From Liolophura sinensis (Eukaryota; Mollusca; Polyplacophora; Chitonida; Chitonidae), in NCBI RefSeq assembly GCF_032854445.1, contig NC_088300.1:81272101-81336100 (forward strand): a DNA stretch of 64,000 nt, written 5' to 3'. The stretch's first letter is position 1, and each line of letters opens with the position of its first letter. A program made the translations under genes and the position numbers. Under the pieces are notes generated by a model. That model was given only the letters and a program-made list of their open reading frames with translations. It was not told the DNA's origin and made no database searches. This document shows, in pieces, positions 13,331 to 36,886 of the stretch.

Positions 13331-13333
13331 CAC

Positions 13334-13520
13334 AGTGCCTCTGCTAGCTGTGGACTGAGTTAAGGCTTGAGTCAGAAAGGATGGCTGTTATAATCCTGTG
13401 TAGAGAGTGACTCTGCTGGCTGTGGACTGGGTCAAGGCTTGAGTCAGAAAGGATGGCTGTTATAATCCTGTGTAGACAGTGCCTCTGCTGGCTGTGGACT
13501 GAGTCAAGGCTTCCCGCTCT
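13334..13520 (-). repeat. 71-bp repeat of the gene's C-terminal coding end, in the 3' UTR
   Basis: About two and a half units contain GACTCAGTCCACAGCCAGC and GGATTATAA (minus strand). The first unit is the coding end itself, including the stop codon; the others lie after the stop. Confidence 0.85.
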
Positions 13521-13593: not shown

Positions 13594-16500
13594 CTGAAAT
13601 GCAGAGAGCATCTTGTCACAAAACTGACCAGGAACTAGTGATTAAATCACAGGTATGATACACTAACTGACAGGTATGATACACTGACGGAGCACTATTG
13701 ACTAAATCACTGCTATGATACACCGACATGTATGCCACACTAATTGACAGGGCACTACTGATTAAATCACAGGTATGATACACTAACTGACAGGGCACTT
13801 GATTAAATCACAGGTATGACACAGACAGGTATGATACAATAACTGACAGGTCTCTAGTGATTAAATCACAGGTATGACATTAACTGACACGGCACTACTG
13901 ATTAAGTCACAGGTATGATACACTCACTGTCCGGGTACTATTGATCAAATCACAGGTATGATATACTGACAGGTATGACAGAAACAGGGCACTATTGATT
14001 AAATCACAGGTATGATGCACTAACTTAAAAACATTATTTATTACATGACAGGTATGATACACTAACTGACAAGGCACTATCGATTAAGTTAAAGGAATGA
14101 TGCACTAGTGGATGGGGCAATATTGATTGCATCATGCACTAACTGACCAGGCACTATTTATTGTATCATGCACTAACTCACTTTATGCTGAAATGTAACT
14201 GCTACAAACACAATATACAAATGTCCTGCATTTATATGGCATAGAATATTTTCTCTCTGTTAGGTGTTAGCCGAGTTATTGCTTACCTGTGGCAGATATT
14301 AGTTGTGTTCCTACATGTACATGTACTCACCTATGGTAGGTGTTAGCTGTGTTCCTGTTCACCTGTGGCAGGTGTCAGTTGTGTTCCTGCTCACCTGTGG
14401 CATGTGTTAGCTGTGTTCCTGCTCACCTGTGGTAGGTGTTAGCTGTGTTCCTGCTTACCTGTGGCAGGTGTTAGTTGTGCTCCTACGTGTACATGTACTC
14501 ACCTGTGGTAGGTGTTAGCTGTGTTATTGCTCTTCCGTGGTAGGGGTTAGCTGTGTTCCTGCTCAACCTGTGGTAGGTCTTAGCTGTGTTCCTGCTCACC
14601 TGTTGTAGGTGTTAGTTGTGTTCCTACATGTACATGTACTCACCTGTGGTAGGTGTTGACTGTGTTCCTGCTCACCTGTGGCATGTGTTAGTTGTGTTCT
14701 ACATGTACATGTACTCACCTGTGGTAGGTGTTAACTGTGTTGCTGCTCACCTGTGGTAGGTTATAGCTGTGTTGCTGCTCATCTGTTGTAGGTGTTAGCT
14801 GTGTTGCTGCTCACCTGTAGCAGGTGTAAGCTGTGTTAATACATGTCCTCACCTGTGGTAGGTGTTATCTGTGTTGCTGCTCCCCTGTGGTAGGTGTTAG
14901 GTGTGTTCCTGCCTACCTGTGACAGATGTTAGCTGTCTTACTACTCACCTGTGGCACAGCCTCCAATGATAGCTAGCAGCTCCTCTGAGGCCGCACACTT
15001 ATCCCCTTCTATCCTGAACAACGGCTGATTGCATGTGTCAGTTGCTTGTTACCCCCTGGGCACAATGTGTTCTTGGGGCATGGTTGTGGGTCACAAGATG
15101 CACACTGTATGAAAACAAGCATATTACATGTATTAATAGTTTGTATCATCATCCATTAAGAGCGCGCACTTGCTCAGAAGGTGAAACGCTTCCTCGCTCT
15201 GGCAGTTTGTGCAACATAAGGGAAAACGTTTTATCAGATGAAATTTTTTTTATTTTATCAATGAAATATGCAGCATTCGTTAAACATGTTAAAATGTCAT
15301 GAGTATTGAAAAAGAGGAAATGTCTGGCTGCTGCCTGATCTAAATGTCAACATGATACTGACAGTAATGTGCTTGACAACAAAGTCACAAGGTCCCTGTC
15401 TGACTTACTGGACAGAAGTGGCCACCCGGACAGCCGATACAGTCCTTACAACAAAGTCCCTGTCTGATTTACTGACAGAAGTGGTCGCCCGGACAGCCGA
15501 TACAGTCCTTACAACAAGGTCCCTGTCTGACTTACTAGACAGAAGTGGCCACCCGGACAGCCGATACAGTCCTTACAACAAGGTCCTGTCTGACTTACTA
15601 GACAGAAGTGGCCACCCCGACAGCCGATACAGTCCTTACAACAAGGTCCCTGTCTGACTTACTGGACAGAAGATGCCCTGTGGACAGTCCTTACAACAAG
15701 GTCCCTGTCTGATTTACTGGACAGAAGTGGCCACACGGACAGTGCTTAAAACAAGGTCCCTGTCTGGCTAAATATTAGACAGAAGTGGCCACGTGGACAG
15801 CTGATACAGACCTTTACAAGGTCACTGTCTGACTTACTGGACAGAAGTGGCCAGGTGGACAGCTGATACAGTCTTTACAAGGTCACTGTCTGACTTACTG
15901 GACAGAAGTAGCCAGGTGGACAGCTGATACAGACTTTAACAAGGTCACTGTCTGACTTCCTGGACAGAAGTGGCCACGTGGTCAGCTGATACAGACTTTA
16001 CAAGGTCACTGTCTGACTTATTGGACAGAAGTGGCCACGTGGACAGCTGATACAGGTCTTTACAAGGTCACTGTCTGACTTACTGGACAGAAGTAGCCAC
16101 GTGGACAGCTGATACAGACTTTACAAGGTCACTGTCTGACTTACTGGACAGAAGTGGCCACGTGGACAGCTGATACAGACTTTACAAGGTCACTGTCTGA
16201 CTTCCTGGACAGAAGTGGCCACGTGGACAGCTGATACAGACTTTACAAGGTCACTGTCTGACTTACTGGACAGAAGTGGCCACGTGACAGCTGATACAGT
16301 CCTTATAGCAAGGTCCCCTGTGTAACTTCCTGGACAGAAGTGGCCACGTGGACAGCTGATACAGACTTAACAAGGTGACTGTCTGACTTACTGGACAGAA
16401 GTGGCCACGTGGACAGCTGATACAGACTTTACAAGGTCACTGCTCTGACTTACTGGACAGAAGTGGCCACGTGGACAGCCGATACAATCTTTACAAGGTC

Positions 16501-19500
16501 ACTGTCTGACTTACTGGACAGAAGTGGCCACGTGGACAGCCGATACAGTCCTTATAGCAAGGTCCCTGTGTAACTTCCTGGACAGAAGTGGCCACGTGGA
16601 CAGCTGATACAGACTTTACAAGGTCACTGTCTAACTTCCTGGACAGAAGTGGCCACGTGGACAGCTAATACAGACTTTACAAGGTCACTGTGTAGCTTCC
16701 TGGACAGAAGTGGCCACGTGGACAGCTGATACAGACTTTACAAGGTCACTGTCTGACTTACTGGACAGAAGTGGCCACGTGGACAGCTGATACAGACTTT
16801 ACAAGGTCACTGTCTGACTTCCTGGACAGAAGTGGACAGCTGACACAGTCTTTACAAGGTCACTGTCTGACTTACTGGACAGAAGTGGCCACGTGACAGC
16901 TGATACAGACTTTACAAGGTCCCCGTGTAACTTCCTGGACAGAAGTGGCACGTGGACAGCTGATATAGACTTTACAAGGTCACTGTCTGACTTCCTGGAC
17001 AGAAGTGGCCACGTGGACAGCTGATACAGACTTTACAAGGTCACTGTCTGACTTACTGGACAGAAGTGGCCACGTGGACAGCTGATACAGTCCTTATAGC
17101 AAGGTCCCTGTGTAACTTCCTGGACAGAAGTGGCCACGTGGACAGCTGATACAGACTTAACAAGCTCACTGTCTGACTTACTGGACAGAAGTGGCCACGT
17201 GGACAGCTGATACAGACTTTACAAGGTTACTGTCTGACTTACTGGACAGAAGTGGCCACGTGGACAGCTGATACAGTTTTTACAAGGTCACTGTCTGACT
17301 TACTGGACAGAAGTGGCCACGTGGACAGCAGATACAGTCCTTATAGCAAGGTCCCTGTGTAATTTCCTGGACAGAAGTGGCCACGTGGACAGCTGATACA
17401 GACTTTACAAGGTCACTGCCTAACTTCCTGGACAGAAGTGGCCACGTGGACAGCTGATACAGACTTTACAAGGTCACTGTCTGACTTACTGGACAGAAGT
17501 GGCCACATGGACAGCTGATACAGTCCTTACAACAAGGTCCCTGTCTGACTTACTGGACAGAAGTGGCCACATGGACAGCTGATACAGACTTTACAAGTCA
17601 CTGTCTGACTTACTGGACAGAAGTGGCCACGTGGACAGCTGATATAGACTTTACAAGGTCACTGTCTGACTTACTGGACAGAAGTGGCCACATGGACAGC
17701 TGATACAGACTTTACAAGGTCACTGTCTGACTTACTGGACAGAAGTGGCCACGTGGACAGCTGATACATACTTTACAAGGTCACTGTCTGACTTCCTGGA
17801 CAGAAGTGGCCACGTGGACAGCTGATACAGACTTTACAAGGTCACTGTCTGACTTACTGGACAGATGTGGCCACGTGGACAGCTGATACAGTCCTTATAG
17901 CAAGGTCCCTGTGTAGCTTCCTGGACAGAAGTGGCCACGTGGACAGCTGATACAGATTTTACAAGGTCACTGTCTGACTCACTGGACAGAAGTGGCCACG
18001 TTGACAGCTGATATAGACTTTACAAGGTCACTGTCTGACTTACTGGACAGAAGTGGCCAGGTGGACAGCTGATACAGTCTTTACAAGGTCACTGTCTGAC
18101 TTACTGGACAGAAGTGGCCACGGGGACAGCTGATACAGACTTTACAAGGTCACTGTCTGACTTACTGGACAGAAGTGGCCACGTGGACAGCTGATACAGA
18201 CTTTACAAGGTCACTGTCTGACTTACTGGACAGAAGTGGCCACGTGGACAGCTGATATAGACTTTACAAGGTCACTGTCTGACTTCCTGGACAGAAGTGG
18301 CCACGTGGACAGCTGATACAGACTTTACAAGGTCACTGTCTGACTTCCTGGACAGAAGTGGCCACGTGGACAGCTGATACAGACTTTACAAGGTCACTGT
18401 CTGACTTACTGGACAGAAGTGGCCACGTGGACAGGAGATACAGTCTTTACAAGGTCACTGTCTGACTTACTGGACAGAAGTAGCCAGCTGGACAGCTGAT
18501 ACAGTCTTTACAAGGTCACGGTCTGACTTATTGGACAGAAGTGGCCACGTGGACAGCTGATACAGACTTTACAAAGTCACTGTCTGACTTACTGGACAGA
18601 AGTGGCCACGTGGACAGCTGATACAGGCTTTACAAGGTCCCCGTGTAACTTCCTGGACAGAAGTGGCCACGTGGACAGCTGATACAGACTTTACAAGGTT
18701 ACTGTCTGACTTCCTGGACAGAAGTGGCCACGTGGACAGCTGATACAGACTTTACAAGGTCACTGTCTGACTTACTGGACAGAAGTGGCCACGTGGACAG
18801 CAGATACAGTCTTTACAAGGTCACTGTCTGACTTACTGGACAGAAGTAGCCAGGTGGACAGAGGATACATTTCTTAGCGCCAAAGTCCGTCTGGTATGAT
18901 CCGTCCGCACACTGCTCACACAGGTCACTACCTGGAATGGCTTTTGCTTTTCCTGTCAAACAATCATTTATTTATTTCATGTTTATTTGCATGTTGCTTA
19001 ATGCTATACAGAAGGATTTTTCACATATGGGATGGAGGAAGTGTCCTCTGACCTTTGGCAAGTGACTGACAAACATGTGCAGACATATTCAGCAGACAAG
19101 TGGTTTTCAATGATAGTTCAAAGGATAGTTTAGGCAAACACCCAAACAAGCATTGTTATTCACCCAGTGTCACCAAGGCCTTGCAGGCAGTGGAGTAGAA
19201 GAATTCAACAAGCTGTGCATGTACTTGAACTTGATACCTTTCTTCTAGTGGAATAAAGATTTCATGCTACATACACACTTCTAATTAGACTGTACGTGTA
19301 AACATAGATTTACCTGCTTTTATTACCTTTTTTTATTGATTTGAAGCAATACCAAAATAAAAGCAAAATAGACAGGCATGAAAGGTAGTGACTAGCCTCA
19401 AACACATGGCCTTTACTCCATACCTAACAGTCAACTTACATACCCACTGACTCACATCCTCATTGTACACCTACATTCTTCAATACCAGCCTTGCTCTCC

Positions 19501-22500
19501 CCTGTGTAATATTTCAGTCACAAAATACTGAGACACATGCAATGTATACGCTACCTGGTTCACACAAAGTACAGTTTTCCGCGCCTTCCTTCACAGCTTC
19601 CTCGCCTGCAGCACACACCTCACAGACTTCACAGGCCGGTTCACTGCAACATGATCAGGGGTAAGAATCAGCCATTGTACACAGACACCACAACATTGCT
19701 CACCTACATAACATGCATGTACACACCTCACAGACTTCACAGGCCAGTTCACTGCAACATGATCAGGGGTAAGAATCAGCCATTGTACACAGACACCACA
19801 ACATTGCTCACCTACATAACATGCATGTACACACCTCACAGACTTCACAGGCCAGTTCACTGCAACATGATCAGGGGTAAGAATCAGCCATTGTACACAG
19901 ACACCACAACATTGCTCACCTACATAACATGCATGTACACACCTCACAGACTTCACAGGCCGGTTCACTGCAACATGATCAGGGGTAAGAATCAGCCATT
20001 GTACACAGACACCACAACATTGCTCACCTACGTAACATGCATGTACACACCTCACAGACTTCACAGGCCAGTTCACTGCAACATGATCAGGGGTAAGAAT
20101 CAGCCATTGTACACAGACACCACAACATTGCTCACCTACGTAACATGCATGTACACACCTCACAGACTTCACAGGCCAGTTCACTGCAACATGATCATGG
20201 GTAAGAATCAGCCATTGTACACAGACACCACAACATTGCTCACCTACATAACATGCATGTACACACCTCACAGACTTCACAGGCCGGTTCACTGCAACAT
20301 GATCAGGGGTAAGAATCAGCCATTGTACACAACATTGCCATTGTACACAACATTGCTCACCTACATAACATGCATGTACACACCTCACAGACCTCACAGG
20401 CCGGTTCACTGCAACATGATCAGGGGTAAGAATCAGCCATTGTACACAACATTGCCATTGTACACAACATTGCTCACCTACGTAACATGCATGTACACAC
20501 CTCACAGACTTCACAGGCCGGTTCACTGCAGCATGATCAGGGGTAAGAATCAGCCATTGTACACAGACACCACAACATTGCTCACCTACGTAACATGCAT
20601 GTACACACCTCACAGACTTCACAGGCCGGTTCACTGCAACATGATCAGGGGTAAGAGTCAGCCATTGTACACAGACACCACAACATTGCTCACCTACATA
20701 ACATGCATGTACACACCTCACAGACTTCACAGGCCGGTTCACTGCAACATGATCAGGGGTAAGAATCAGCCATTGTACACAGACACCACAACATTGCTCA
20801 CCTACATAACATGCATGTACACACCTCACAGGCTTCACAGGCCGGTTCACTGCAGCATGATCAGGGGTAAGAATCAGCCATTGTACACAGACACCACAAC
20901 ATTGCTCACCTACATAACATGCATGTACACACCTCACAGACTTCACAGGCCGGTTCACTGCAGCATGATCAGGGGTAAGAATCAGCCATTGTACACAGAC
21001 ACCACAACATTGCTCACCTACATAACATGCATGTACACACCTCACAGGCTTCACAGGCCGGTTCACTGCAGCATGATCAGGGGTAAGAATCAGCCATTGT
21101 ACACAGACACCACAACATTGCTCACCTACATAACATGCATGTACACACCTCACAGACTTCACAGGCCAGTTCACTGCAACATGATCAGGGGTAAGAATCA
21201 GCCATTGTACACAGACACCACAACATTGCTCACCTACGTAACATGCATGTACACACCTCACAGACTTCACAGGCCAGTTCACTGCAACACGATCATGGGT
21301 AAGAGTCAGCCATTGTACACAACATTGCCATTGTACACAACATTGCTCACCTACATAACATGCATGTACACACCTTACAGACCTCACAGGCCAGTTCACT
21401 GCAACATGATCAGGGGTAAGAATCAGCCATTGTACACAGACACCACAACATTGCTCACCTACATAACATGCATGTACACACCTCACAGACTTCACAGGCC
21501 AGTTCACTGCAACATGATCAGGGGTAAGAGTCAGCCATTGTACACAACATTGCCATTGTACACAACATTGCTCACCTACATAACATGCATGTACACACCT
21601 CACAGACCTCACAGGCCAGTTCACTGCAACATGATCAGGGGTAAGAATCAGCCATTGTACACAGACACCACAACATTGCTCACCTACATAACATGCATGT
21701 ACACACCTCACAGACTTCACAGGCCGGTTCACTGCAACATGATCAGGGGTAAGAGTCAGCCATTGTACACAGACACCACAACATTGCTCACCTACGTAAC
21801 ATGCATGTACACACCTCACAGACTTCACAGGCCGGTTCACTGCAGCATGATCAGGGGTAAGAATCAGCCATTGTACACAGACACAACAACATTGCTCACC
21901 TACATAACATGCATGTACACACCTCACAGACTTCACAGGCCGGTTCACTGCAACATGATCAGGGGTAAGAGTCAGCCATTGTACACAACATTGCTCACCT
22001 ACATAACATGCATGTACACACCTCACAGACCTCACAGGCCGGTTCACTGCAACATGATCAGGGGTAAGAATCAGCCATTGTACACAGACACCACAACATT
22101 GCTCACCTACATAACATGCATGTACACACCTCACAGACTTCACAGGCCGGTTCACTGCAACATGATCAGGGGTAAGAGTCAGCCATTGTACACAGACACC
22201 ACAACATTGCTCACCTACATAACATGCATGTACACACCTCACAGACTTCACAGGCCGGTTCACTGCAGCATGATCAGGGGTAAGAATCAGCCATTGTACA
22301 CAGACACCACAACATTGCTCACCTACATAACATGCATGTACACACCTCACAGGCTTCACAGGCCGGTTCACTGCAGCATGATCAGGGGTAAGAATCAGCC
22401 ATTGTACACAGACACCACAACATTGCTCACCTACATAACATGCATGTACACACCTCACAGACTTCACAGGCCGGTTCACTGCAACATGATCAGGGGTAAG

Positions 22501-25500
22501 AATCAGCCATTGTACACAGACACCACAACATTGCTCACCTACATAACATGCATGTACACACCTCACAGGCTTCACAGGCCGGTTCACTGCAGCATGATCA
22601 GGGGTAAGAATCAGCCATTGTACACAGACACCACAACATTGCTCACCTACATAACATGCATGTACACACCTCACAGACTTCACAGGCCGGTTCACTGCAA
22701 CATGATCAGGGGTAAGAATCTGCCATTGTACACAGACACCACAACATTGCTCACCTACATAACATGCATGTACACACCTCACAGACTTCACAGGCCAGTT
22801 CACTGCAACATGATCAGGGGTAAGAATCAGCCATTGTACACAGACACCACAACATTGCTCACCTACATAACATGCATGTACACACCTCACAGACTTCACA
22901 GGCCAGTTCACTGCAACATGATCAGGGGTAAGAATCAGCCATTGTACACAGACACCACAACATTGCTCACCTACATAACATGCATGTACACACCTCACAG
23001 ACTTCACAGGCCGGTTCACTGCAACATGATCAGGGGTAAGAATCAGCCATTGTACACAACATTGCTCACCTACATAACATGCATGTACACACCTCACAGA
23101 CCTCACAGGCCAGTTCACTGCAGCATGATCAGGGGTAAGAATCTGCCATTGTACGCAGACACCACAACATTGCTCACCTACATAACATGCATGTACACAC
23201 CTCACAGACTTCACAGGCCAGTTCACTGCAACATGATCATGGGTAAGAATCAGCCATTGTACACAGACACCACAACATTGCTCACCTACATAACATGCAT
23301 GTACACACCTCACAGACTTCACAGGCCAGTTCACTGCAACATGATCATGGGTAAGAATCAGCCATTGTACACAGACACCACAACATTGCTCACCTACATA
23401 ACATGCATGTGCACACCTCACAGACTTCACAGGCCGGTTCACTGCAACATTGCACACACCTCAAAGATAACTCTTGCTCAACTACAGAACATTTACACAC
23501 CTCAGAAATAAACCTTACTCACCTACATAATAAGTACACACCTCAGAGATAACCCTTCTCACACAGAGAACATTTGATCACCCACAGAACACGTCCACAG
23601 CACACAGACAACACTTGGTCACCTATAGAACATACCCACAGCACACAGACAACACTTGACCACCCACAAAGCATGCCCACAGCACATGGGCAATACCTGA
23701 TCACCCACACAGCACATAGACAGCACAGAGGCAACACTTGATCCCCCACAGTGCACGCCCACAGCACACGGATAACACTTGATCACCCAAAGAACAAGCC
23801 CACAGCACACAGACAACCCTTGATCACTCACAGAACATGCCCGCAGCACACAGACAACCCTTGACCACCCACAGAACATGCCTGCAGCACACAGACAACC
23901 CTTGACCACCCACAGAACATGCCTGCAGCACACAGACAACCCTTGACCACCCACAGAACATGCCTGCAGCACACAGACAACCCTTGACCACCCACAGAAC
24001 ATGCCTGCAGCACACAGACAACCATTGATCACCCACTGAGCATGCCTACAGCACACAGACAACACTTGATCACCCACAGAACATGCCCACAGCACACGGA
24101 CAACACTAGATCATCTATAGAACATGCCCACAGCACACGGACAACACTAGATCACCTACAGAACATGCCCGCAGCACACGGACAACACTTGATCACCTAC
24201 AGAACATGCCCACAGCACATGGACAACACTTGATCACCTACAGAACATGCCCGCAGCACATGGACAACACTTGATCACCTACAACACATGCCGACACCAC
24301 ACAGACAACCCTCGCTTACCCACAGAACATGCCACACCACTCATACTTGCTCACCCACAAAACATGCCCACAGTACACAGATTACAGCTTGTCCCTCCAC
24401 TATGGTTGATGTAGGTGCCGGGGGCACAGTCAGAGCAATTTGTGGCATTTCTGTGCTCACTAAAGTGACCTGTAAAACAGAAGTACAAGAATACAGATTC
24501 CATTATACTTTCTTTTTTCCTACAAAATGTCAATTTGTCAAAAGTCAGAGACAGTCGTAGCACTTGACCTTGTCATTTCAAAGTACTGAGGTTCTTGCAG
24601 GTTTTCATCCCACTTGTCAAATGAATTCATCGACACAGACATCAGTACAATCACACGAATAAATAAACAAGACATCATAAGTGCACAAAAACTGAGTTTA
24701 AAATGTATGTGTAGATGTCATGGTGGTAAGGTCAGCCACTTTTTATATATTAAAAACAATCTGAAAAAAACAGGGTAAAGCAACTGTAAAGCACTTGAAA
24801 GAGAATGTGTAGTCCTACAAGGCATAGACTATGTCACATGTAAGTTTGATGGATGTAGGAAGACAGGTTGTCTGTAAATAAGCCACTGCACAAGTAACTG
24901 AGGAACTTTTTGCATATTGACATCTGAATTTCCTGTACATGTGAGACTTCCTGAACAGACCTACTAACGGTGTCATCAAATTACATGTATTGCCATCAAA
25001 AGCCCAAGGGGAATGGAAATCAAGCTGTGTGGGAGCGAGGAACTTGAGGTTACTCCAACTGAAGAGGACTATAAGATTTATTTATTTATTTATTTATTTA
25101 TTTGACTGGTGTTCTACAGAAGCCCTCAGGACTATAAGAAGCCCAGCTTTTACCTTTTGTGTACTTTATAGAAACCTGTAATTTAAACACTGCTCCAATC
25201 ATCATCATGAAAAACCTACCAGGAGAGCACGGCTGACACATTTCCTTTGACATGCTGTGTTTGAAATATCCCTTTTCACAGCCAGTACAATTTGTGGCTC
25301 CAAGAGCTCTGAAAATGAAAGATGATGGTAGCGATAAGAAAAGAAATGCTAAAGAGACAATTCTTATGAGCTTTTTAAACTTAAATGAATGATAATAAAT
25401 GGTTTATTTTAAGTTCCAAGTGAAGCAAACATTTTACTGTCTGACAGAGTTTATCCCGAGAGGAACTGCAGGTACACACGGCACAAATATATCTGTATAC

Positions 25501-28500
25501 ACATGAGTTGTTTATACACCAACCTGGTTTCAAATCCTGCTGGGCAGGGGAGACAATTGGTTTGACCTTCTTTGTCTTGATACTCGCCTGCAGAAGAGAA
25601 TGTATAAAACAAACAAAATCAAACAGACTTTGATGTTCACTGTAGCCATCTAAACAAATCATAATGAAGTCATTTTCTGATTCAGAAAGGCATTTAATTT
25701 CCTACAACTGAACATTGCCATACAAGAGAAGTAGTTTATAATACATTTATAGAAAAAACCACCATCTAAAATTACAGTCTATATGGAACTACAGAACATG
25801 GAATTATTTTTCAGTAGTTTTCAGTACAAAATTCTCACCAAGTTGACATGCTTTACAGAACTTGTTGCCTTTGGAGTCAGAGTAGTTCCCCTTGGGACAG
25901 CTGGAACAATTCACACACCCAGAAATACTGAAAAAGGAAAACAGAGAATTGGTTTTCAGAGAAAATATTTGATGAATTATTACACTTTCTGGACACACAG
26001 CATTCTATTGTACAAAGAATCAAAACTGTAATCTTTAATAATCCACCCGTCACCAAGATGATCAAATAGAACACAGCCTGAACAAGGCTTAAAATATACT
26101 CAGACTACAACTCTGGTGACACTCAATCCAGCTTTCTACAACTGACACACACCTGTGCTGCAGTTTTTGTACTCTCTAAGAACTTGATTTTGTTAAATAC
26201 ATCAGATGAGTCAATCATTTCTGGAAGTCTGGGGAAGTATGTATAAGTCAGCCTAATAGCTACAATTAACAGTTAAATCTGGGTCAGTTACATATACATG
26301 AACAGTCACAGACAAACATTATACTGTAAACGCCTTTTTATTCGCGTGGTACTAACATCTGTGGCAAACACATTTCCGCAAACACCACCCATGTAAGTAA
26401 TTTATTAATGTAGCATGCATTACAGCTATAATATCGCTAACAAGCACTACAGTTCTAATACTTTTTCAAACATGTTAATTAGAAATACCTAATTAGAATG
26501 TACTCCGGCTTTCACAAATCCAGCTTAACCAATCGTCATTTAATCTTGCTCTCTTTTATGGAGGCTTAGCTCCATCTAAGTATTGCCCCATTGCAACATT
26601 GTTGTTGTTGTTGATTCATTGCAGCGGTTAGAGACATACAAATTGATGATTTGTACTGGGCGTGTGTACATGATACGATATACATACGATGAGAAAGGCT
26701 GTTTTTTTATTAACTGTACTTGCCTTCCAGTCAGATCACCTTTCCAACATGCCCGATACATTGCTCGGGGGTTTCCACACTTCAAACTTCCTTTTCATAA
26801 TGACGATTTCTGAGAAGTTTAGTCAAATCTGTCACAGTTCACTCAAACATTCACTCAGACTGCTGATGCATTTATATCACATTTAATCCTTCGTCGTCGT
26901 TTGCTCACACAGCAGGTAACGGCATCGTCTTATAAAGATTAACAGTCTTCCTTTGTCTGATCAAGTTACTGTATTGTATAGAATGTTTTGCCACATCTTG
27001 TAGGTACAAACAAGAAACAAGTTTAAATGATAACATTGCTACTTGAATGCTTGAGTTGTTTTATTATTTGACGTTTCTGTATTGAAGTTTGATTTTTCGT
27101 TTATCAAGCGTCCAAAAATTCTGTTAACATCCGCGAAGGTTGACTCCCGCGAATATGTCTTCTTACCTAATCCGCAGAAGTTTATCCCGGGAATAACAAG
27201 ACATTTACATTAGACGTGAACAGTCACAGACAAACATCATGTACATATGAACAGTCACAGACAAACATGATATACATGTGAACAGTCGTAGACAAACATC
27301 ATGTACCTGTGAACAGTCACAGACAAACATCATGTACCTGTGAACAGTCACAGACAAACATCATGTACATGTAAACAGTCACAGACAAACATGATATACA
27401 TGTGAACAGTCACAGACAAACACGATATACATGTGAACAGTCATAGACAAACATCATGTACCTGTGAACAGTCACAGACAAACATCATGTACATGTAAAC
27501 AGTCACAGACAAACATCATGTACATGTAAACAGTCACAGACAAACATATTATACATGTGAACAGTCACAGACAAACATGATATACATGTGAACAGTCATA
27601 GACAAACATCATGTACCTGTGAACAGTCACAGACAAACATGATATACATGTGAACAGTCACAGACAAACATCATGTACATGTGAAGTCACAGACAAACAT
27701 CATGTACATGTGAACAGTCACAGACAAACATCATGTACATGTGAACACTCAGACAAACACCATGTACATGTGAACAGTCACAAACAAACACAACATACAT
27801 GTGAACAGTCACAGACAAATGTCATGTACATGTGAACAGTCACAGACAAACATCATGTATATGTGAACAGTCACAGACAAACATCACATACAAGTGAACA
27901 GTCACAGACAAACACCATGTACATGAGAACAGTCAGACAAACATCATACACATGTGAACAGTCACAGACATACAGCATGTACATGTGAACAGTCACAGAC
28001 AAATGTCATGTACCTGTGAACAGTCACAGACAAACATCATGTATATGTGAACAGTCACATACAAACATCACATACAAGTGAACAGTCACAGACAAACATC
28101 ATGTACATGAGAACAGTCAGACAAACATCATGTACATGTAAACAGTCAGACAAACATCATGTACATGTAAACAGTCAGACAAACATCATATACAAGTGAA
28201 CAGTCACAGACATACAGCATGTACATGTGAACAATCACAGACAAACATCATGTACATATGAACAGTCACAAACATACATCATATACATGTGAACAGTCAC
28301 AGACAAACATCATACACATGTGAACAGTCACAGACAAACATCATGTATATGTGAACAGTCACAGACAAACATCATACACATGTGAACAGTCAAAGACAAA
28401 CATCATGTACCTGTGAACAGTCACAGACAAACACCATACACATGTGAACAGTCACAGACAAACATCATACACATGTGAACAGTCAAAGACAAACATCATG

Positions 28501-31500
28501 TACATGTGAACAGTCACAGACAAACATGTACATGTGAACAGTCATAGACAAACATGATATACATGTGAACAGTCACAGACAAACATCATGTACATGTGAA
28601 CAGTCACAGACAAACATGTACATGTGAACAGTCACAGACAAACATCATACACATGTGAACAGTCACAAACAAACATCATGTACATGTGAACAGTCACAGA
28701 CAAACATCATGTACATGTACATATATATATATATATATACAAATACACATGTAGAAAGAAGGCTGCATACATGTGAACATGTGGGCCACCTTACCCAGGG
28801 CAAGAGTGCTGAACTGACTAGCAAACTGCAGGTTTATTTATTTATCTGACTGGTGTTTTAGACCATACTCAAAAACAGAGTATTTAGCTTATGCAACAGT
28901 GGCTAGCATTATGGTGGGAGAAAACCTGACAAAGGCTAGGGGAAAACCCTCAATCATCGGCAGCTAAGTGGCAAATCTTCCGACATACAACATAGGAGGA
29001 AGCCAGCACGAATTGGACTTGAACTAACAGCGACTACATTGGTGAGATGCTCTGGAGTCCTTGAGCTACGCTGGCTGACCACATGGCCACGGAGAGCTTG
29101 CAGTGTTTTACTTACTTGCAGTATGTACCCTCTTCACACAAATGACATGTCTGCTGGCCTGTATCATTCTGATAATGCCCATAGTCACACCTATAGCACT
29201 CAAGGAGGCCAGTCTTGTTAGCATAGAAACCTGCAGCAGAAGAGGTCATACATGGCTATGGGTGCATTTAAGATAGGTATACCTGTGTACCAGTCACACA
29301 GGTGTACCTGTCAAACATGTGTACCTGTCAAACATGTGTACCTGTCAGAGATATGTGTACTAGTGTACCTGTCCAATCTGTGTACCTGTTAGATCTGTGT
29401 ACTTGTGTATCCAGCCAAATATGTCTACATGTACCTGTCAGAGTGATGTATGTGTACCTGTGTACCTATCAAATCTCTGTACTTGTGTATGTCAGATCTG
29501 TGAACCTGCCAGATATGTGTACCTGTCAGATCTGTGTACTTGGGTATCGGACAAATCTATGTAATATGTACTTGAGTATTTGTCAGATCTATGTATTTGT
29601 GTATCCGTCAGATCCGTGTACCTGTCAGATATGTGTACTTGCCAGATTTGTGTACCGACTAATTTCCCAAGGAAAACATGTCCAGAACATTAACAATTGT
29701 GGAGTACAGAACTTACCAACTTCCCACGGAAAACATGTCCAGAACATTAACAATTGTAGAGTATAGAACTTACCAACTTCCCAAGGAAAACATGTCCAGA
29801 ACATTAACAACAGAGAAGTACAAATCTTACCGGCTTCACAAGGAAAACAAGTACTGCACCCTTCAAGACTGAAACAAAATTGTTTGATAAAGTATTCATT
29901 AAGCTCAAAATTCATCTAAATAAACAACAGAAATGACCAGTACATGTACATGTAATTACTATTACAATGTAATTAGTATTGCATGTGTTCCCACTACCAC
30001 CAAGCAAGATGCCAGTTCAATAATATTATTAAATGGGTTTAATATGTTACCTTGACTCGCTTGCACAATGGGATTGTGACTACTTATCTAAATTTTAAGC
30101 CAACAACTGATTTACAATAGACTGTGAAAATAAGTCTAGACTTTTGAGGTGGTAGTAACTTTTTGTAGTTACGATCACAATCGGAGGCCAAACTTGACTT
30201 ACATAACGGTGGTTTGTATAAATGTACCGGTCAACAACTTTTCCTTGCTTTCATTATTAAAATAATTCTGCATCATAATGGTTTAGCACATAAAAACAAC
30301 AAAATGCTAGAAAAGTCTTGCAACAACTTTTTGAGACAAATAAACTGAAATAAATTTTAAGATAAGGCTACGACCAATATCTTACTGATTTACAATAGCT
30401 TTATAGCCTTTGTCAACTAAAATTGTATGAGGTTAACAAGGGATTGTTTATGGTGAAGACAGATGAGTTTTGTGTCATTTGAAAGCATACAAAAATAAAA
30501 GCCTTGTGACAAAGGAGAGACATGTCAGATCAAATCCTTTTACAGACTACGTACACAACACAAAACTGGTAGATTGGACATAATAGATGCAGCTGCAGGA
30601 GATAACCTGACACCCAAACATATGGGCTGTATGAAGTAAGCACATAGTGGTCGTACTTGCAGAAGGTGCCTTTAGCACAGCTGACACAGGTGGTTTGCCT
30701 GGTCTGGTTTTGAAAGCTTCCAGGTTTACAACTGAGACAGTCTGGTTGTCCCTGCTGAGGCTGGTACTTCCCCTGGCAGCATTCATCACAGGTCAGGGAG
30801 CGGGGCTTTCGGGCATGGGTGCCTGCAAAGACAGGGACAATAAGGAAATCATGACTGAGGTCTAACTATGCCACATTGACTGGGAGAAGGCCGTACATGG
30901 ACACTGTTATTCTTGAAGTCAGTGCTTTAACTTCACATAATATGACATATTTTAAGAGACTGGTACATTTTATGCAAACTTACCAACTTCCCAAGGAAAA
31001 CATGTCATGTACATTAACAATTGGGGAGTATAGAACCTACCAACTTCCCAAGGAAAACATGTCCTCAACATTAACAATTGTGCTGGGTGTGTTTGTATCT
31101 TACCTGCATCACACTTTTCACAGGATGAAGCTCCTGTCTGATTGCTGAACCAGCCAGGTGAACAGTCATAACATGTTGTCTCACCAGCATTTCTGAAAAC
31201 AGGATGTAATAAACACTAACACAGTGTTATACAAAACAGGATGTAATAAACACTAACACAGTGTTATAAAAATCAGGATGTAATAAACACTAACACAGTG
31301 TTATAAAAAAAAAAAAAAAACAGGATGTAATAAACACTAACACAGTGTTATAAAAAAATAGGATGTAATAAACACTAACACAGTGTTATAAAAAAACAGG
31401 ATGTAATGAACACTAACAGTGTTATAATGACTGTGACAGGGATTTATAGTGAACACGTACATGTACCCTCTCAGCCAATAGTCACATGTTACAAGCACAA

Positions 31501-33391
31501 TTCAACATTATCACTTTATTTGAAAGTGAATTGCTATTAGTGTGATGTAAAAAGCCAAGCATAACTATGTAAAATGAAAGTGAAAGTGAACAATTCTCTA
31601 CATGTAAAGCAGTTGTTATAAAGCTATAAACTATACACACTCTGACATTTGTGTTCAGGTCCCTTCTCAGATGGATACGCTGATTTGACTAATTCGTTCA
31701 TTATTTTGTTGATTGGATATAAATTTTCAACATGTTCAAGAGTATTTTTGTTCATCTACTCAATCCCTGAAGTTTTCATCAGTACTTACTGTGGCGGTCA
31801 TCTTTATGGATTTAGGAAATAAAGGTGCCTTGATTCAATTTTTTATCTTTGGCATGTTACTGACAATCTCTTCCATGTGACATACACACTTCTTCTAGTA
31901 CCAATGAAAGGACAATGGTCTTCAAACACACATGACAGGCCACTAGGCCCTATGGACAGCAAGGAAGTCTAAACACCATATCCTATGTAATAGTCCAATC
32001 AGACACAACACTTGAGAACATGTGCCCACTAAGCCCTACACATCTGGAAAAAGCAAGCTCTGACAAGCTGTGGGGATATGTTGCTGTTTCACCAGCATAT
32101 AAAGATTTACCCTGAATAAGTGCCCTCTTCACAATGGGAACAACTCTAGACTTTGGTTGTGCGCTGGTAGTACCCACATTTACTACAGAGGAAGACTTAC
32201 TCAGAACAGGTGCCCTCTTCACAAGGGGAACAACCCCAAGCTGGGCTCATATTTACTGTAGAGGAAGACTTAATCAGAATAAGTACCCTCTTCACAAGGG
32301 GAACAACCCCAAGCTGGGCTCATATTTACTGTAGAGGAAGACTTACTCAGAATAAGTACCCTCTTCACAAGGGGTACAACTCGAGGCTTCGGTTGTGTTC
32401 TGGTAGTATCCAGGTTCACATTTACTACAGCAGGAGGCCTCACAGCAAAAACCTGGCTGTCGATTGCAGCATCCACAACATGTCACGGCTTCAAGAGAAA
32501 CAAGCCACGTGGTATCAAACTTCAACTGTAAAGGTAACTGGTAACAAAAATCCAGAGTGCAAGCTTTGGTGGATTGAAGCTTGCTACATGATACAATGAC
32601 CACACAGGTATGGTCGGAAATTCAGCAGGCCTGAGAAATCAAAACCCAGAAATCTCACCTGCTTAAATTATATATGATTCATATGATTGACTGGTGTTTT
32701 TTTCACGCCGTACTCAAGAATATTTCACTTATACAACGACGGCCAGCATTATGGTGGGAGGAAACCCCTAAATTTAGACATCTGGTCTTTCCTTGGTATT
32801 AAATTTTAATGGTAATACAAAACTTCGGTAAAACCTGAAAAACAACAGATTCACTTTAACACTTTTTTCATAAACTATTATTGTTCAACATCATGCTTGA
32901 TCAGATTAATTACAGTTATTAAAAAGTTACATGTAAATTTTTTTTTATAAATCTATTTTAGCTCCCTTAATATCAGTGAGCTTGTCTAGACTACAGGTTT
33001 GTGTATTTTTAATCCTGGTCAATAATACTTTCTGTTTTATGGATTTGTATTTGTCATGATGTTATCGTGTAATAGGACCATTTGGCCTATTGATTTTTTT
33101 CAAATTAACATCCATATTTATTACCTTATCGACAACATTCCATGTACACAGACATGTACACATATGTTATTTGTAATTATCACTGAGAGTTTCAGAAAGC
33201 TTACTGTTATTTGCATACTGTCCTGCCTGGCATGGGAAACAGTTTTGTATGACCTCAGAACAGTTCAGCACAGGGGTGAACTCATCCAGATATACTTCAG
33301 ACCACCCTTGGCTAATAAGAACTACCAGCAAAACTGGAAAGGAAACATTCATACAAAATATCATTACAAACACTACGAAGATGTGTGGCAT
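13460..33391 (-). CDS. Type I membrane protein with ephrin-receptor-like/TNFR-like cysteine-rich repeats, complete 14-exon model
   Basis: From 5' to 3' the coding segments are 33391-33205, 32488-32347, 31192-31104, 30822-30657, 29868-29831, 29230-29116, 25927-25839, 25587-25524, 25308-25220, 24469-24355, 19643-19555, 18931-18837, 15024-14949 and 13593-13460. They total 1488 bases, 495 residues plus stop, with no frame conflict. Residues 1 to about 31 form a hydrophobic signal peptide (VFVMIFCMNVSFPVLLVVLI). About 40-426 carry repeated CxxC...G.Y...C..C.PG modules of the ephrin-receptor-like (GCC2/GCC3) kind with many NxT/S sites. About 442-465 form a transmembrane helix split between the last two exons, then RKRRRR and a short tail. 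Intron phases alternate 1 and 2 through the ectodomain. Likely a cell-surface protein; ligand and orthologue are unknown. The exon at 15024-14949 has a weak pyrimidine tract and is the least certain join. Confidence 0.85.
13610..14180. repeat. Irregular 40-50-bp minisatellite
   Basis: Units contain GATTAAATCACAGGTATGAT and CACTAACTGACAGGGCACTA, decaying to the right. It sits in the last intron of the membrane-protein gene. No exon parent is evident. Confidence 0.82.
14255..14950 (-). repeat. 33-bp minisatellite derived from the donor edge of exon 13
   Basis: About 20 units. On the minus strand each reads roughly ACCTACCACAG|GTGAGCAGGA followed by ACACAGCTAAC. The real exon end GCCACAG|GTGAGT is the first member. 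Confidence 0.88.
14949..15024 (-). CDS. Membrane-protein exon 13 (juxtamembrane and first half of TM helix)
   Basis: The donor is CACAG|GTGAGT (strong); the acceptor is GCAATCAG (poor pyrimidine tract). It encodes PLFRIEGDKC and EELLAIIGGCAT. Phase 0 in, 1 out. The frame fits exactly between exons 12 and 14. Confidence 0.7.
15053..15104 (-). other. Possible cryptic cysteine-rich exon
   Basis: A good acceptor (GTTTTCATACAG) is followed by an open 52-nt segment, CASCDPQPCPKNTLCPG, and GTAACA. Its phase (0 in, 1 out) does not fit exon 13, so it is left out of the model. Confidence 0.25.
15375..18837 (-). repeat. 61-bp satellite (about 57 units) derived from the donor edge of exon 12
   Basis: On the plus strand units read CTGGACAGAAGTGGCCACGT + GGACAGCTGATACAGACTTT + ACAAGGTCACTGTCTGACTTA. 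On the minus strand this is TGTCCACGTGGCCACTTCTG + TCCA|GTAAGTCAGACAGTG, matching the exon 12 end CTGTCCACCTGGCTACTTCTG + TCCA|GTAAGTCAG. It fills almost all of the intron. Confidence 0.93.
18837..18931 (-). CDS. Membrane-protein exon 12
   Basis: The acceptor is CCATTCCAG and the donor is TCCA|GTAAGT. It encodes SDLCEQCADGSYQTDFGAKK and CILCPPGYFCP. Phase 1 in, 0 out, breaking the alternating phase pattern. Its 3' edge seeds the 61-bp array. Confidence 0.87.
18932..19554 (-). other. Intron 11 of the membrane-protein gene
   Basis: About 620 bases of ordinary AT-rich sequence with no array. It stands out because the introns on both sides are almost entirely tandem repeat. Confidence 0.6.
19555..19643 (-). 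CDS. Membrane-protein exon 11
   Basis: The acceptor is CATGTTGCAG and the donor is CCAG|GTAGCG. It encodes EPACEVCEVCAAGEEAVKEG and CTLCEPG. 89 bases, phase 2 in, 1 out. The first 29 coding bases and the acceptor recur in every unit of the 108-bp array upstream on this strand. Confidence 0.87.
19644..23457 (-). repeat. 108-bp array (about 36 units) with a splice-bounded 48-nt cassette per unit
   Basis: Units are 108 bases with 9-base length variants (99, 117). On the minus strand each contains CATGTTGCAG|TGAACCGGCC, the start of exon 11, then TGTGAAGTCTGTGAGGTGT, GTACATGCATGTTATGTAG and |GTGAGCAATG. The AG and GT remain in all units I followed, and substitutions are few. Both strands are open across the whole array only because the unit is a multiple of three without stops. 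Confidence 0.95.
23560..24375 (-). repeat. 42-bp minisatellite derived from the donor edge of exon 10
   Basis: About 18 units. On the minus strand they read GTGTGCTGTGGGCATGTTCT + GTAG|GTGATCAAGTGTTG, compared with exon 10 CTGTGGGCATGTTTTGTGG|GTGAGC. The middle units have GTGGTC instead. Confidence 0.88.
24355..24469 (-). CDS. Membrane-protein exon 10
   Basis: The acceptor is TTTTACAG and the donor is TGTGG|GTGAGC. It encodes HFSEHRNATNCSDCAPGTY and CNLCTVGMFCG. 115 bases, phase 1 in, 2 out. Its 3' edge seeds the 42-bp array that follows. Confidence 0.9.
24470..25219 (-). other. Intron 9 of the membrane-protein gene
   Basis: No gene. It contains a short SINE-tail relic, a (TTTA)n run then GACTGGTGTTCTACAG, at about 25077-25120. 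Confidence 0.55.
25220..25308 (-). CDS. Membrane-protein exon 9
   Basis: The acceptor is TTCATTTTCAG and the donor is CCTG|GTAGGT. It encodes ALGATNCTGCEKGYF and MCQPCSPG. 89 bases, phase 2 in, 1 out. Confidence 0.87.
25524..25587 (-). CDS. Membrane-protein exon 8
   Basis: The acceptor is CTTCTGCAG and the donor is CCAG|GTTGGT (weak). It encodes EYQDKEGQTNCLPCPAGFET. 64 bases, phase 1 in, 2 out. It lies just outside the duplicated unit. Confidence 0.82.
25839..25927 (-). CDS. Membrane-protein exon 7
   Basis: The acceptor is CCTTTTTCAG and the donor is CTTG|GTGAGA. It encodes ISGCVNCSSCPKGNYSDSKG and CKACQLG. 89 bases, phase 2 in, 1 out. It is the last exon inside the 11.7-kb duplicated unit. 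Confidence 0.9.
25928..27190 (-). other. Intron 6, part without repeats
   Basis: AT-rich, no exon or element recognised on either strand. The open frames (for example 26583-26813) have no family signature. Identical sequence lies at 37652-38915. Confidence 0.5.
27215..28715. repeat. 31-bp minisatellite, copy A
   Basis: About 48 units of GTGAACAGTCACAGACAAAC + ATCATGTACAT with small length variants, ending in a (TA)n run. It lies in intron 6. No relation to an exon edge was found. Confidence 0.93.
28833..29097 (-). mobile_element. Degenerate tRNA-derived SINE, copy A
   Basis: In plus-strand order: (TTTA)n, CTGACTGGTGTTTTAGACCA, CAGTGGCTAGCATTATGGTG, TTGGACTTGAACTAACAGCG (reverse B-box region) and GCTGACCACATGGCCACGGA (head). 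It is on the minus strand and much more diverged than the copy at 36265-36535. It ends about 20 bases from exon 6. Duplicated at about 40557-40822. Confidence 0.75.
29116..29230 (-). CDS. Membrane-protein exon 6
   Basis: The acceptor is TGCTGCAG and the donor is GCAA|GTAAGT. It encodes FYANKTGLLECYRC and GHYQNDTGQQTCHLCEEGTY. 115 bases, phase 1 in, 2 out. A degenerate SINE head lies about 20 bases past the donor. Confidence 0.88.
29285..29655. repeat. 25-bp GT-rich minisatellite in intron 5
   Basis: Irregular units of GTGTACCTGTCAGATCTGTG. Duplicated at about 41008-41378, where one GA is missing. Confidence 0.85.
29655..29830 (-). repeat. 57-bp repeat (three units) of the donor edge of exon 5
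   Basis: On the minus strand units read ACATGTTTTCCTTGGGAAGTT + G|GTAAGTTCTGTACT, next to exon 5 TGTTTTCCTTGTGAAGCCG|GTAAGA. Duplicated at about 41378-41553. Confidence 0.85.
29831..29868 (-). CDS. Membrane-protein exon 5 (38-nt micro-exon)
   Basis: The acceptor is TTTGTTTCAG and the donor is GCCG|GTAAGA. It encodes LEGCSTCFPCEAG. Phase 2 in, 1 out. Its 3' end and donor are copied in a small minisatellite directly downstream. Confidence 0.82.
30657..30822 (-). CDS. Membrane-protein exon 4
   Basis: The acceptor is CTTTGCAG and the donor is TGCAA|GTACGA (weak). It encodes two modules, CDECCQGKYQPQQGQPDC and CKPGSFQNQTRQTTCVSC. Phase 1 in, 2 out. Confidence 0.87.
30980..31080 (-). repeat. Two further exon-5-edge units displaced into intron 3
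   Basis: CTTACCAACTTCCCAAGGAA and CCTACCAACTTCCCAAGGAA each carry the same 57-bp unit as 29655-29830, more than 1 kb away and on the other side of exon 4. Duplicated at about 42702-42802. Confidence 0.85.
31104..31192 (-). CDS. Membrane-protein exon 3
   Basis: The acceptor is CTGTTTTCAG and the donor is GCAG|GTAAGA. It encodes NAGETTCYDCSPGWFSNQTG and SSCEKCDAG. 89 bases, phase 2 in, 1 out. Confidence 0.88.
31196..31430. repeat. 38-bp repeat abutting the exon 3 acceptor
   Basis: Six units of ACAGGATGTAATAAACACTA + ACACAGTGTTATAAAA; each contains the near-palindrome TAACACTGTGTTA. The array begins inside the pyrimidine region of the exon 3 acceptor. One linker is a run of about 17 A. Duplicated at about 42918-43152. 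Confidence 0.88.
32113..32346 (-). repeat. Three partial copies of the exon 2 end in intron 2
   Basis: Reading on the minus strand after exon 2, CCCCTTGTGAAGAGGGTACTT recurs. One copy has its donor changed to TTAAGT, the next keeps GTAAGT, and the last has a TAG in the exon frame and a shifted GGTAAAT. They are not in the model because exon 2 joins exon 3 in phase without them. Duplicated at about 43835-44068. Confidence 0.83.
32347..32488 (-). CDS. Membrane-protein exon 2
   Basis: The acceptor is TTTCTCTTGAAG and the donor is CTGA|GTAAGT. It encodes a very cysteine-rich stretch (VTCCGCCNRQPGFCCEASCC) and CEPGYYQNTTEASSCTPC. Phase 1 in, 2 out. Its 3' part is repeated downstream in the intron. 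Confidence 0.8.
32683..32770 (-). mobile_element. Truncated SINE tail, copy A
   Basis: GATTGACTGGTG, ACGCCGTACTCAAGAATATT and CGGCCAGCATTATGGTGGGA match the 3' part of the SINE at 36265-36535. Duplicated at about 44405-44492. Confidence 0.75.
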
Positions 33392-33396
33392 AAAGC
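33205..33396 (-). CDS. Membrane-protein exon 1 (signal peptide; start codon)
   Basis: A strong acceptor (TTGTTTTGCAG) precedes it, so a non-coding 5' exon probably lies upstream. The exon starts GCTTT and then ATG at 33391. Two further in-frame ATGs follow (33364 and about 33352), and either would still leave a signal peptide. It ends NCFPCQAGQYANN, phase 1, donor GTAAGC. Confidence 0.82.
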
Positions 33397-34576
33397 CTGC
33401 AAAACAAATTCAGTCCACAGACAGTCCCCTTGTATGCAGTTCTTATGAACTACATTCATTCATGCATTCAGATCATTAGTCAGGACAACTATGGGACTAT
33501 GTTAAGTATATATGTGTTTATATGTAGCGGATGGGATTAATATATAAACTGTTCCATTAGTCCTAGGTACCAGTAAGGCTTATTTTTGGATGGCCGTACT
33601 TTAAAGAAAAGACAAAAAACCTGATTTATAAATGTATCAGTAGAGTATAAGGTTATAAAGCATACCATATTATTTTTGTTATTGTTGATTTGTGCAGTTA
33701 CCAAGAACACGAGGAAACAATTCCCATTCAAAACATGGTAGATGTTGGTTCACCTTGTTTGATTCAAAAGTTTGAATGGCTGGATTACTGTTAAAAAACG
33801 GTTTACCGATGCTTGCTTTGACATATCAGATGACATATAAGGAATATGTGCATACCAAAATTAGAGTCTGTTTCATTAGGTTCACTTAGCTAATTAAGCC
33901 CTTAACTAGCATGACAATTAATGTATATTGTGTATGTGTGTATGTGTGCTTGGGGTTTTACGTCGTTCCGGGAGTATCATTAATGTACAACAAATGACAA
34001 GCTTCCCTTTACAAAATTACAGGTTCAATTGTGCCTTCGAACACAAAATCTCCCGCAGTTACATGCAATCACAGTGAAGCAAGAAATTGTGCTTATGTCA
34101 AACATCGAAAATACTCTTTTTTCATGTATATCCGTGAACGCCGTTCTGTCCATCTTCAGCTTTCCTGACTATCGTATGTAAGTGCTCAACACAGTAGTAG
34201 CTCTAGGACTAGGCTGTTGGTATCCAAATGAATCAGACGTTGTACAAATGTACATGCTAGCCTACAAACTAAACTGAAGTTCACCATCGCCATTCGTCTG
34301 TAAGGACAGCCTGCCCAAGGTTTGATTATAAACCCACCTGGCACGTTCCACAAGACAGTGGTTGACTGTCTACGCAGAGTTTCTGTCATGTTTTTGACAT
34401 TTTCAACAAAATAGAAACTTATCAAAGCTTAATGTCAACACAAAACACCCAACAAGACTTAGTACGGAAACTTTTGTCATACGCCATTTGCTTGTCATGT
34501 GACCACCAAATGCATTCATGGGGAGATAACTGTAGTGACCAACTGAAACTCGCCTAGCGTGCTCTGACACACGTAT
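33397..34576 (-). other. 5' flank of the membrane-protein gene
   Basis: A non-coding first exon and promoter are expected here because exon 1 starts at an acceptor, but none can be placed by eye. A relic of the second SINE family (GCTTGGGGTTTTACGTCGTT) is at about 33948-33970. Duplicated at 45119-46298. Confidence 0.4.
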
Positions 34577-35230
34577 AAAGCTGAGATTCCATATACGCGG
34601 TATGCGGTTTGCGGTATACTCCACGCGGTACGCGGATACGGCATGCGGTATGCGCTTTCTCTGATTCCATTTATGCGGTAACCTATGCGTTTTCTTTCAT
34701 TCATGGTACGTTTTTATCAGAGCAAACATGTCGCATTCCTCCATTTCACGACGTGTGGCTTTAGAGCAAGATTCAGACCTTGCCATAATAGCAATGTCAT
34801 ATAAGTTGTTGCAACTAAAGAAGCGTAAAAAGAGAAAACACCGATGGTGGGTCCACAGTATTTTGCGGCAAAGAGCTCAGCAGGGAGCTTTACATAACTT
34901 GGTCTCGGAATTGCAGCTGGATGGAGAAAAATTCCAACAGTACTTTCGTCTAACCAGAGAACAATTTAAACAAGTTCCGACCACGTGTCGGGGAAACACC
35001 CCACCAGTGACGTCATTTCTTGGGATACTCTGTCCGGTTTTGAAAACGCATACCGCACCGATCGCTACATGGTGCGATTGATTTTGCCGTATACGTTTCC
35101 GCTTGAAAAAACGGATCCGCGACCGTACCTATGGAATCATTGCAACTTATTTTAACTATTTCGATTTTTTTGCGGCGTACCGCATACCGCGTACCGTATA
35201 CCGCTACCGCATGTAAGGAATCTCAGCTTT
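34577..35230 (+). mobile_element. Non-autonomous PIF/Harbinger-like element, copy A
   Basis: The terminal inverted repeat AAAGCTGAGATTCC...GGAATCTCAGCTTT bounds about 654 bases. Subterminal GCGGTA/TACCGC motifs are repeated on both sides (for example GGTATGCGGTTTGCGGTATA left, TACCGCATACCGCGTACCGT right). An open frame sits inside. Flanking bases do not give a clean target-site duplication. Confidence 0.72.
34728..35081 (+). pseudogene. N-terminal remnant of a Harbinger-type transposase, copy A
   Basis: 117 residues. The stretch KKRKHRWWVHSILRQRAQQG, then LDGEKFQQYFRLTREQF, resembles the N-terminal part of PIF/Harbinger (HARBI1-like) transposases. Afterwards the similarity stops and no DDE catalytic region is present, so this is an internal-deletion derivative. 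The element's TIRs flank it. Identification is from memory of the family pattern. Confidence 0.65.
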
Positions 35231-35563
35231 AATCACATGTAGGTAACACCATATATGATTTCAACTGTGCACGTTTAGATGCCTGTATATACCGTGTCTA
35301 TTCACTGTATGGTACAGAGAAGTATGAGTGGGATTTATTTTATTTTGTAAATCCACGTAGGACATTCTATTAAAGAGAAATGCTAATCTTGCGTAGGCTT
35401 TAAGTAATAACAAACAAAAGTCTAGGGACAAATCAACATGCGAGACTTGTAACCACTGTATGCCCACGGGAGAGACATGTTTTGGGTCTAAACAAGATTA
35501 TGGTTACTTTCCCAATAAGGGTTTCCACACTGTCATGATGTCTCACACGCCTGTAATTGTCAC

Positions 35564-35804
35564 TTGACCGAGGTGGTTAGCGTGCCAAAATAATCCAGGA
35601 GCCTCTCGCACATGCGGTTGCTATGAGTTCAAGTCCAGCCCATATGCTGGCTTCCTCTGCCTCCATCCCCCGCCGACCCCCCAGCCTGACGTGAGAAGAT
35701 CTGCCAGCAGTATGTGGATGGTCGTAGGTTTCCTTCGGGTTCTGCCTGGCTTCCTCCCAGGCAGAATATTAGTGAGCATGGCGTAAGCACTAACCAAATC
35801 CCGG

Positions 35805-35836
<32 letters not shown>
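35564..35836 (+). mobile_element. tRNA-derived SINE with (AAAT)n tail, copy A
   Basis: Head GAGGTGGTTAGCGTGCC (A-box-like) and GAGTTCAAGTCCAG (B box), a C-rich body and an (AAAT)n tail. Flanked by a near-perfect target-site duplication, TAATTGTCAC at 35554-35563 and TAATTGTGAC at 35837-35846. Duplicated at about 47286-47558. Confidence 0.8.
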
Positions 35837-35841
<5 letters not shown>

Positions 35842-36535: not shown

Positions 36536-36886
36536 CGTAAAAGCCTGAGTACCGTGGTATAAGACTGACTATCGTTGTATAAGCCTATAGTCTGTTTCTT
36601 TTAGCGAGTCGCCTATATTCAGCTGTCGGTAAAATCAGTCCTATTCGCTACCAAAATTACCTTTAGTCAGTGACATGTAACATATTCTTGCAAAGAAAAG
36701 TAAGAATACTTTTTCTAATTCTTAATGTTAAACTGCATTAGCTCGGTTTCGACGGCAAGAACTCATAGCATTCGGTGACGTCAAAAGTGTTAAAAAAAAA
36801 CGGCGTCATGCTGGACAATGGACGTGGAGAGCTATTTTCTTTACAATGATTTAACAGGCAGCTTAACATAGGCAGCTAAAGAAACT

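Follow-up and report, generated by a model that had tools for sequence, protein, structure and literature searches.

The 64,000-nucleotide stretch of Liolophura sinensis DNA analysed here (contig NC_088300.1, positions 81,272,101 to 81,336,100; hereafter the window) carries on its minus strand a gene for a putative cysteine-rich surface protein. A 12-exon model of this gene specifies 421 residues and has, by eye, a signal-peptide-like start. Pfam matched the 421-residue model to Ephrin_rec_like (PF07699; seven stretches, E 3.2e-41) and to NCD3G (PF07562; one stretch, E 3.5e-14). Beyond the 12-exon model lie a cysteine-rich exon 13 and an exon that, by eye, resembles a transmembrane segment with a basic tail. 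At the junctions that follow exons 1 to 11 the phase alternates 1, 2, 1, 2, and exons 3, 7, 9, and 11 are each 89 nt long and run from phase 2 to phase 1. Exons 10 to 12 are firm, whereas the start of exon 2 (acceptor score -5.0, picked to suit the phase) and exon 13 are the doubtful parts of the model. Exon 13 (14949-15104, minus strand) contains an internal change of reading frame, which may be due to a missed junction, an error in the sequence, or a frame shift. Screening of positions 13000-33500 against Rfam returned nothing at the gathering threshold. Elsewhere in the window, positions 25691-37406 and 37415-49127 form a tandem copy of 11.7 kb (99.9% identical) that holds the first seven modelled exons and is either a recent duplication or a pair of unmerged haplotypes, and positions 54795-55974 (minus strand) hold broken open reading frames resembling, by eye, a Tc1/mariner-type transposase. 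The features between exons 10 and 12 are, in the direction of transcription:

24355 to 24469, minus strand: exon 10, 115 nt, phase 1 in and phase 2 out, donor GG/GTGAGC (gene model)
23560 to 24381, minus strand: 41-bp array that starts within exon 10 and repeats the exon 10 3' end and donor, 20 copies (TRF)
23442 to 23559, minus strand: transition zone from the 41-bp to the 108-bp array, with pieces GAGGTGTGTAC...ATTATGTAGGTGAG, probable source of the donor half of the cassette
19704 to 23441, minus strand: array of 35 cassettes of 48 nt each with intervening spacers, first cassette 23441-23394 and last 19751-19704, bounded by AG and GTGAGC (minus-strand parse and TRF)
19644 to 19703, minus strand: last spacer, 60 nt, identical to the consensus spacer and ending in the exon 11 acceptor (parse)
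19555 to 19643, minus strand: exon 11, 89 nt, phase 2 in and phase 1 out, its first 31 nt being the head of every cassette unit (gene model)
18837 to 18952, minus strand: exon 12, phase 1 in and phase 0 out (gene model)

Within the window, TRF placed a 108-bp array at 19613-23450 (35.4 copies, 95% matches). A pattern parse of the minus strand resolved this array into 36 acceptors, 35 donors, and 35 cassettes, every cassette being exactly 48 nt long. The first cassette base is 23441, and the last (36th) acceptor is that at which exon 11 begins (19643). All 35 cassettes are preceded by TG(C/T)TGCAG and followed by GTGAGC. These observations confirm the tandem array of splice-bounded, frame-neutral 48-nt cassettes that a first-pass annotation had described, along with its statement that AG, GT, and the open frame persist, which held in 35 of 35 cassettes. 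Its copy number of about 36 is accounted for by 35 cassettes plus the acceptor of exon 11, and the sequence that it saw shared between cassette and exon 11 is indeed shared, although over 31 nt rather than 29. Spacers of 60 nt, as it had given for the array as a whole, separate 29 of the units, but four spacers measure 69 nt and two measure 51 nt. Similarly, the CTGAT motif that it placed about 24 bases before the AG is present in the consensus 60-nt spacer, with its adenosine 24 nt upstream of the exon (counted by eye), but is altered in some of the 29 such spacers (column 34 in two, column 37 in three).

The 35 cassettes comprise nine distinct sequences that encode six distinct peptides. The single peptide originally reported, EPACEVCEVCTCMLC, is the commonest and accounts for 14 cassettes, while the other 21 carry P/L, V/A, E/K, and C/R variants. 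Each cassette would add 16 residues, including five cysteines in 29 cassettes and four in the six that have lost a cysteine to arginine. A chance origin of the array is plainly ruled out.

The gene model bears out the earlier reading of the phases, with exon 10 ending and exon 11 starting in phase 2. Joining contiguous sets of cassettes between these exons kept the frame and introduced no stop codon in 630 of 630 non-empty sets (665 were tried, of which 35 were empty). This, together with the presence of AG, GT, an open frame, and a length of 48 nt in every cassette, speaks for a working array of variable-number exons, in which zero to many cassettes would be spliced in and the ectodomain would differ in length according to how the transcript is spliced and, between individuals, how large the array is. 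Scored with a small position-weight matrix built from 13 donors of the host gene, the cassette donor reached 8.3 (6.6 with exon 10 omitted), higher than the donors of the flanking exons 10 (4.5) and 11 (0.6), which also speaks for use. The acceptor of exon 11, of which the units carry little-altered copies, scored 4.75, the fourth lowest of 13. At 51-69 nt, the spacers are much shorter than even the smallest of 12 modelled introns (215 nt) and in this respect argue against use. However, a human intron of 56 nt, in which donor and branch site are 27 nt apart, is described as being spliced (PMC8363638), and introns between non-adjacent cassettes would be longer. Splicing of the cassettes is thus feasible in principle. 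Entry into a cassette whose donor is then left unused leads to a stop codon after one residue, as checked on the last cassette.

The array is also traversed by long open reading frames on both strands (1289 codons at 19591-23460 on the minus strand and 1333 codons at 19510-23511 on the plus strand), which are a trap for gene predictors. We rejected these frames as coding because the unit is a multiple of three and the differences in spacer length are multiples of nine, because the minus-strand frame is not entered from exon 10, and because read-through past the last cassette in the real frame stops after one residue.

Whether the persistence of splice signals and frame reflects use can be evaluated from the substitutions among units. 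Variable columns numbered 6 of 48 in the cassette (35 cassettes) and 6 of 60 in the spacer (29 spacers of 60 nt), a difference that is not significant (Fisher P 0.76). All six changes in the cassette are transitions, of which four are nonsynonymous and two synonymous, against expectations of 4.0 and 2.0. Given 12 variable columns among 108, the probability that all four columns of the splice dinucleotides are invariant by chance is 0.62. In the frame of the consensus cassette, a stop codon is created by none of the 45 possible transitions and by 10 of the 135 possible substitutions, all of them transversions. These tests involve six events and have little power, and within that limit neither column variability nor the nonsynonymous to synonymous ratio shows the cassette to be conserved above the spacer. 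Because cassette and spacer vary alike, because the ratio of 4:2 matches neutral expectation, and because no transition makes a stop, the fact that AG, GT, and the open frame persist is as expected under neutral drift and is not evidence of use. Selection on the cassette, given the neutral pattern in this low-power test, and the open frame, given that 0 of 45 transitions yield a stop, were accordingly both rejected as proof of use. The neutral pattern, along with the loss of a cysteine to arginine in 6 of 35 cassettes, argues against a working exon array.

Comparison with homologs points in the same direction. Among the matches listed, the top relative and also the best named one was a sea-urchin protein (P0001; E 1.4e-47), and BLASTP aligned it to the model in two segments (209 and 206 bits) that are offset by internal repeats. 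The junction of exons 10 and 11 is ungapped in both segments, and the first segment continues free of gaps through exon 12. P0001 thus has no cassette, which implies that zero cassettes is the conserved form of the protein, as judged from alignment to this relative and putative ortholog. Likewise, four cassette-like words occurred in 0 of 175 listed relatives (lists of 60 and of 120 of 125), and a 197-residue query of eight cassettes followed by exons 11 and 12 had no match among 3783 candidates; in each of these searches, the candidates were proteins of lengths not far from that of the query. The listed relatives are mostly nameless and none bears a lancelet name. The absence of the cassette from P0001 and of the words from the listed homologs both count against a working exon array. 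Exon 11 measured from the last acceptor is 89 nt, like exons 3, 7, and 9, and is therefore of normal length for this gene. On balance, we regard variable inclusion of cassettes as unlikely. It is equally doubtful that this minisatellite, with its complete splice frame, constitutes a splice-generated protein VNTR in the ectodomain of a cysteine-rich surface protein, with its own range in each individual and perhaps in each cell lineage.

The layout of the unit suggests how it could have arisen. Each unit comprises the first 31 nt of exon 11, a short piece that ends in a donor, and a spacer that ends in the acceptor of exon 11. The part that does not match exon 11 aligns to the tail and donor of exon 10 with a score of 44, a value attained by 2 of 1000 shuffles, and to the distal zone of the 41-bp array with a score of 47, attained by 0 of 1000. 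Pattern matching identified 19 decoy donors in 23451-24354, all 19 of which lead to a stop. We infer that a 41-bp array grown from exon 10 met the head of exon 11 at a shared GAGGTGTGT stretch, that unequal exchange fused the two, and that the fused unit was then amplified to the present array. A cassette that is phase 2 in and phase 2 out could arise in this way without selection, because both of its ends would come from one phase-2 intron and join, by eye, at corresponding cysteine codons. The 73-bp array at exon 2 likewise contains both kinds of splice site (55-nt insert and 18-nt spacer, by eye) and is not frame neutral, which indicates that frame neutrality is no general property of such arrays.

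The first 31 nt of exon 11 and the 60 nt that precede them are identical to the array consensus. This identity could mean that the array serves exon 11 as a reservoir, with unequal exchange replacing those 31 nt from the array such that the protein is changed by turnover of DNA and not by splicing; the P/L, V/A, and E/K variants of the array fall within the same 31 nt. However, the same identity would be expected of a young array derived from exon 11 by copying, and the one assembly available gives no sign of selection for the variants. We consider a reservoir very unlikely. It is also conceivable that the units were made or multiplied by an assembly artefact, as the 11.7-kb copy in the window may be a haplotype duplication and the copy number may consequently be wrong. 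However, the units differ by scattered substitutions and by three spacer lengths, and unrelated arrays are found at five other junctions, which renders an artefact very improbable.

Arrays occur at five other splice junctions of this gene as well. In 13300-33420, a splice site lies inside 6 of 11 arrays, namely the donors of exons 2, 5, 10, 12, and 13 and the acceptor of exon 11, where the 11 arrays are the outcome of merging TRF rows by hand, with omission of nested or overlapping rows and of the rows at 23446-23575, 23493-23557, and 25076 (ATTT). In addition to those given above, the arrays at boundaries are:

15387 to 18869, minus strand: 61-bp array, about 50 copies, repeating the exon 12 3' end and donor (TRF)
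29664 to 29849, minus strand: 57-bp array over the exon 5 donor (TRF)
32178 to 32380, minus strand: 73-bp array over the exon 2 donor, with both kinds of site (TRF)
14326 to 14956, minus strand: 32-bp array over the exon 13 donor (TRF)
460 to 1578, plus strand: 89-bp array in the neighboring gene, with repeats of the 3' end and donor of an exon judged RCC1-like by eye (TRF)

When seed units were placed at random on the collapsed gene, 1.44 arrays with a site were expected versus the six observed (P 0.001), and margins of 3 and 10 bases gave P 0.002 and 0.0003. Relocation of whole arrays placed a site in a mean of 4.96 arrays, against which the 6 of 11 observed were no excess (P 0.32), whereas arrays with exactly one site were in excess (6 versus 1.30, P 0.00035). 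We adopted the seed-placement null because the whole-array null is a poor one, since long arrays swallow exons and the condition that no exon be swallowed left 7 of 400,000 placements. Two further arrays adjoin gene features. A 37-38-bp array at 31196-31427 ends four bases before the acceptor of exon 3 and covers the pyrimidine tract but not the AG, and a 72-bp array at 13332-13512 extends across the end of the transmembrane-like exon, the stop codon, and beyond.

The real site is a donor in six of the seven boundary arrays (the six in the host gene and that at 460-1578). Copies of a donor may be harmless because the first donor would be defined together with its exon. Copies of an acceptor precede the real site in the transcript and may have been tolerated since each unit offers an in-frame exit.

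Collectively, these observations suggest that the array is probably a two-sided, symmetric, and large counterpart of the lancelet boundary minisatellites known as mirages, lying across the acceptor of exon 11, mostly skipped, and representing a neutral repeat as opposed to a selected generator of diversity. The normal transcript would join exon 10 to exon 11 and skip the array. Should an early acceptor be chosen in error, the cassette donor would allow splicing to continue in frame; such errors would be cheap because that donor restores in-frame splicing, which may explain the tolerance of 35 extra acceptors. The first-pass annotation had set an array of micro-exons beside a field of decoy sites without choosing between them. 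The anatomy common to both (sites, phase, and frame) stands, and the decoys are now favored because of the neutral pattern of the cassettes, the ungapped junction in P0001, the arrays at five other junctions, and the lancelet precedents; the length of exon 11 and the alignment of the unit with exon 10 also support a two-sided mirage. Several points weigh against it: the donors of exons 10 and 11 score lower than that of the cassette (6.6-8.3), such that weak sites do not explain skipping; the neutrality tests comprise six events; the cruder null gave P 0.32; and known mirages are described from lancelets and as repeats of one boundary. With 36 near-equivalent acceptors, all but the last followed by a good donor 48 nt on, the locus offers a test of exon definition versus first-come splicing. 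If cassettes are used, it would exemplify a direct route from minisatellite to new exon.

Several known systems resemble this one in part. The micro-exon genes of schistosomes, described as having exons of 3-81 bp and introns of up to 5 kbp, share with it short exons in genes for secreted proteins (PMC10526429). Unlike those genes, the array described here is a minisatellite of near-identical cassettes set 51-69 nt apart. Tandem units that carry spliced exons are found in LPA kringle IV and in the W repeats of Epstein-Barr virus, with inclusion in RNA established. There, as here, each unit holds exon material between splice sites and copy number could alter the length of the protein, but here the unit is only 108 bp and its inclusion in RNA is hypothetical.

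The closest parallel is with the lancelet mirages, which are reported at Adh3, the globins BflGb6 and BflGb9, TnC, and PGBD5, and which reportedly leave regular splicing undisturbed (PMC3087553, PMC3902484). For the globin mirage, a hypothetical model was put forward in which one of the copies becomes recruited as an exon (PMC3087553), and the 108-bp repeats of PGBD5 were predicted as an exon, a possibility that the authors excluded (PMC3087553, PMC3902484). A two-sided, frame-neutral array is not reported in the open-licence papers searched, including the lancelet passages of PMC3087553, PMC3902484, and PMC2632668. Like the mirages described there, the present array is a tandem repeat over an exon-intron boundary (31 nt of exon 11 plus its acceptor), has AG and GT signals within its units, and has the real boundary as its terminal copy (exon 11 at 19643, the 36th acceptor); its unit length of 108 bp is also that of some repeats at PGBD5. 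Unlike them, it is large, with 35 units as compared to 3 or 6 in the globin and 3 or 6 of 108 bp in PGBD5, and whereas theirs are described as repeats of one boundary, each of its units has a symmetric 48-nt cassette flanked by an acceptor and a donor.
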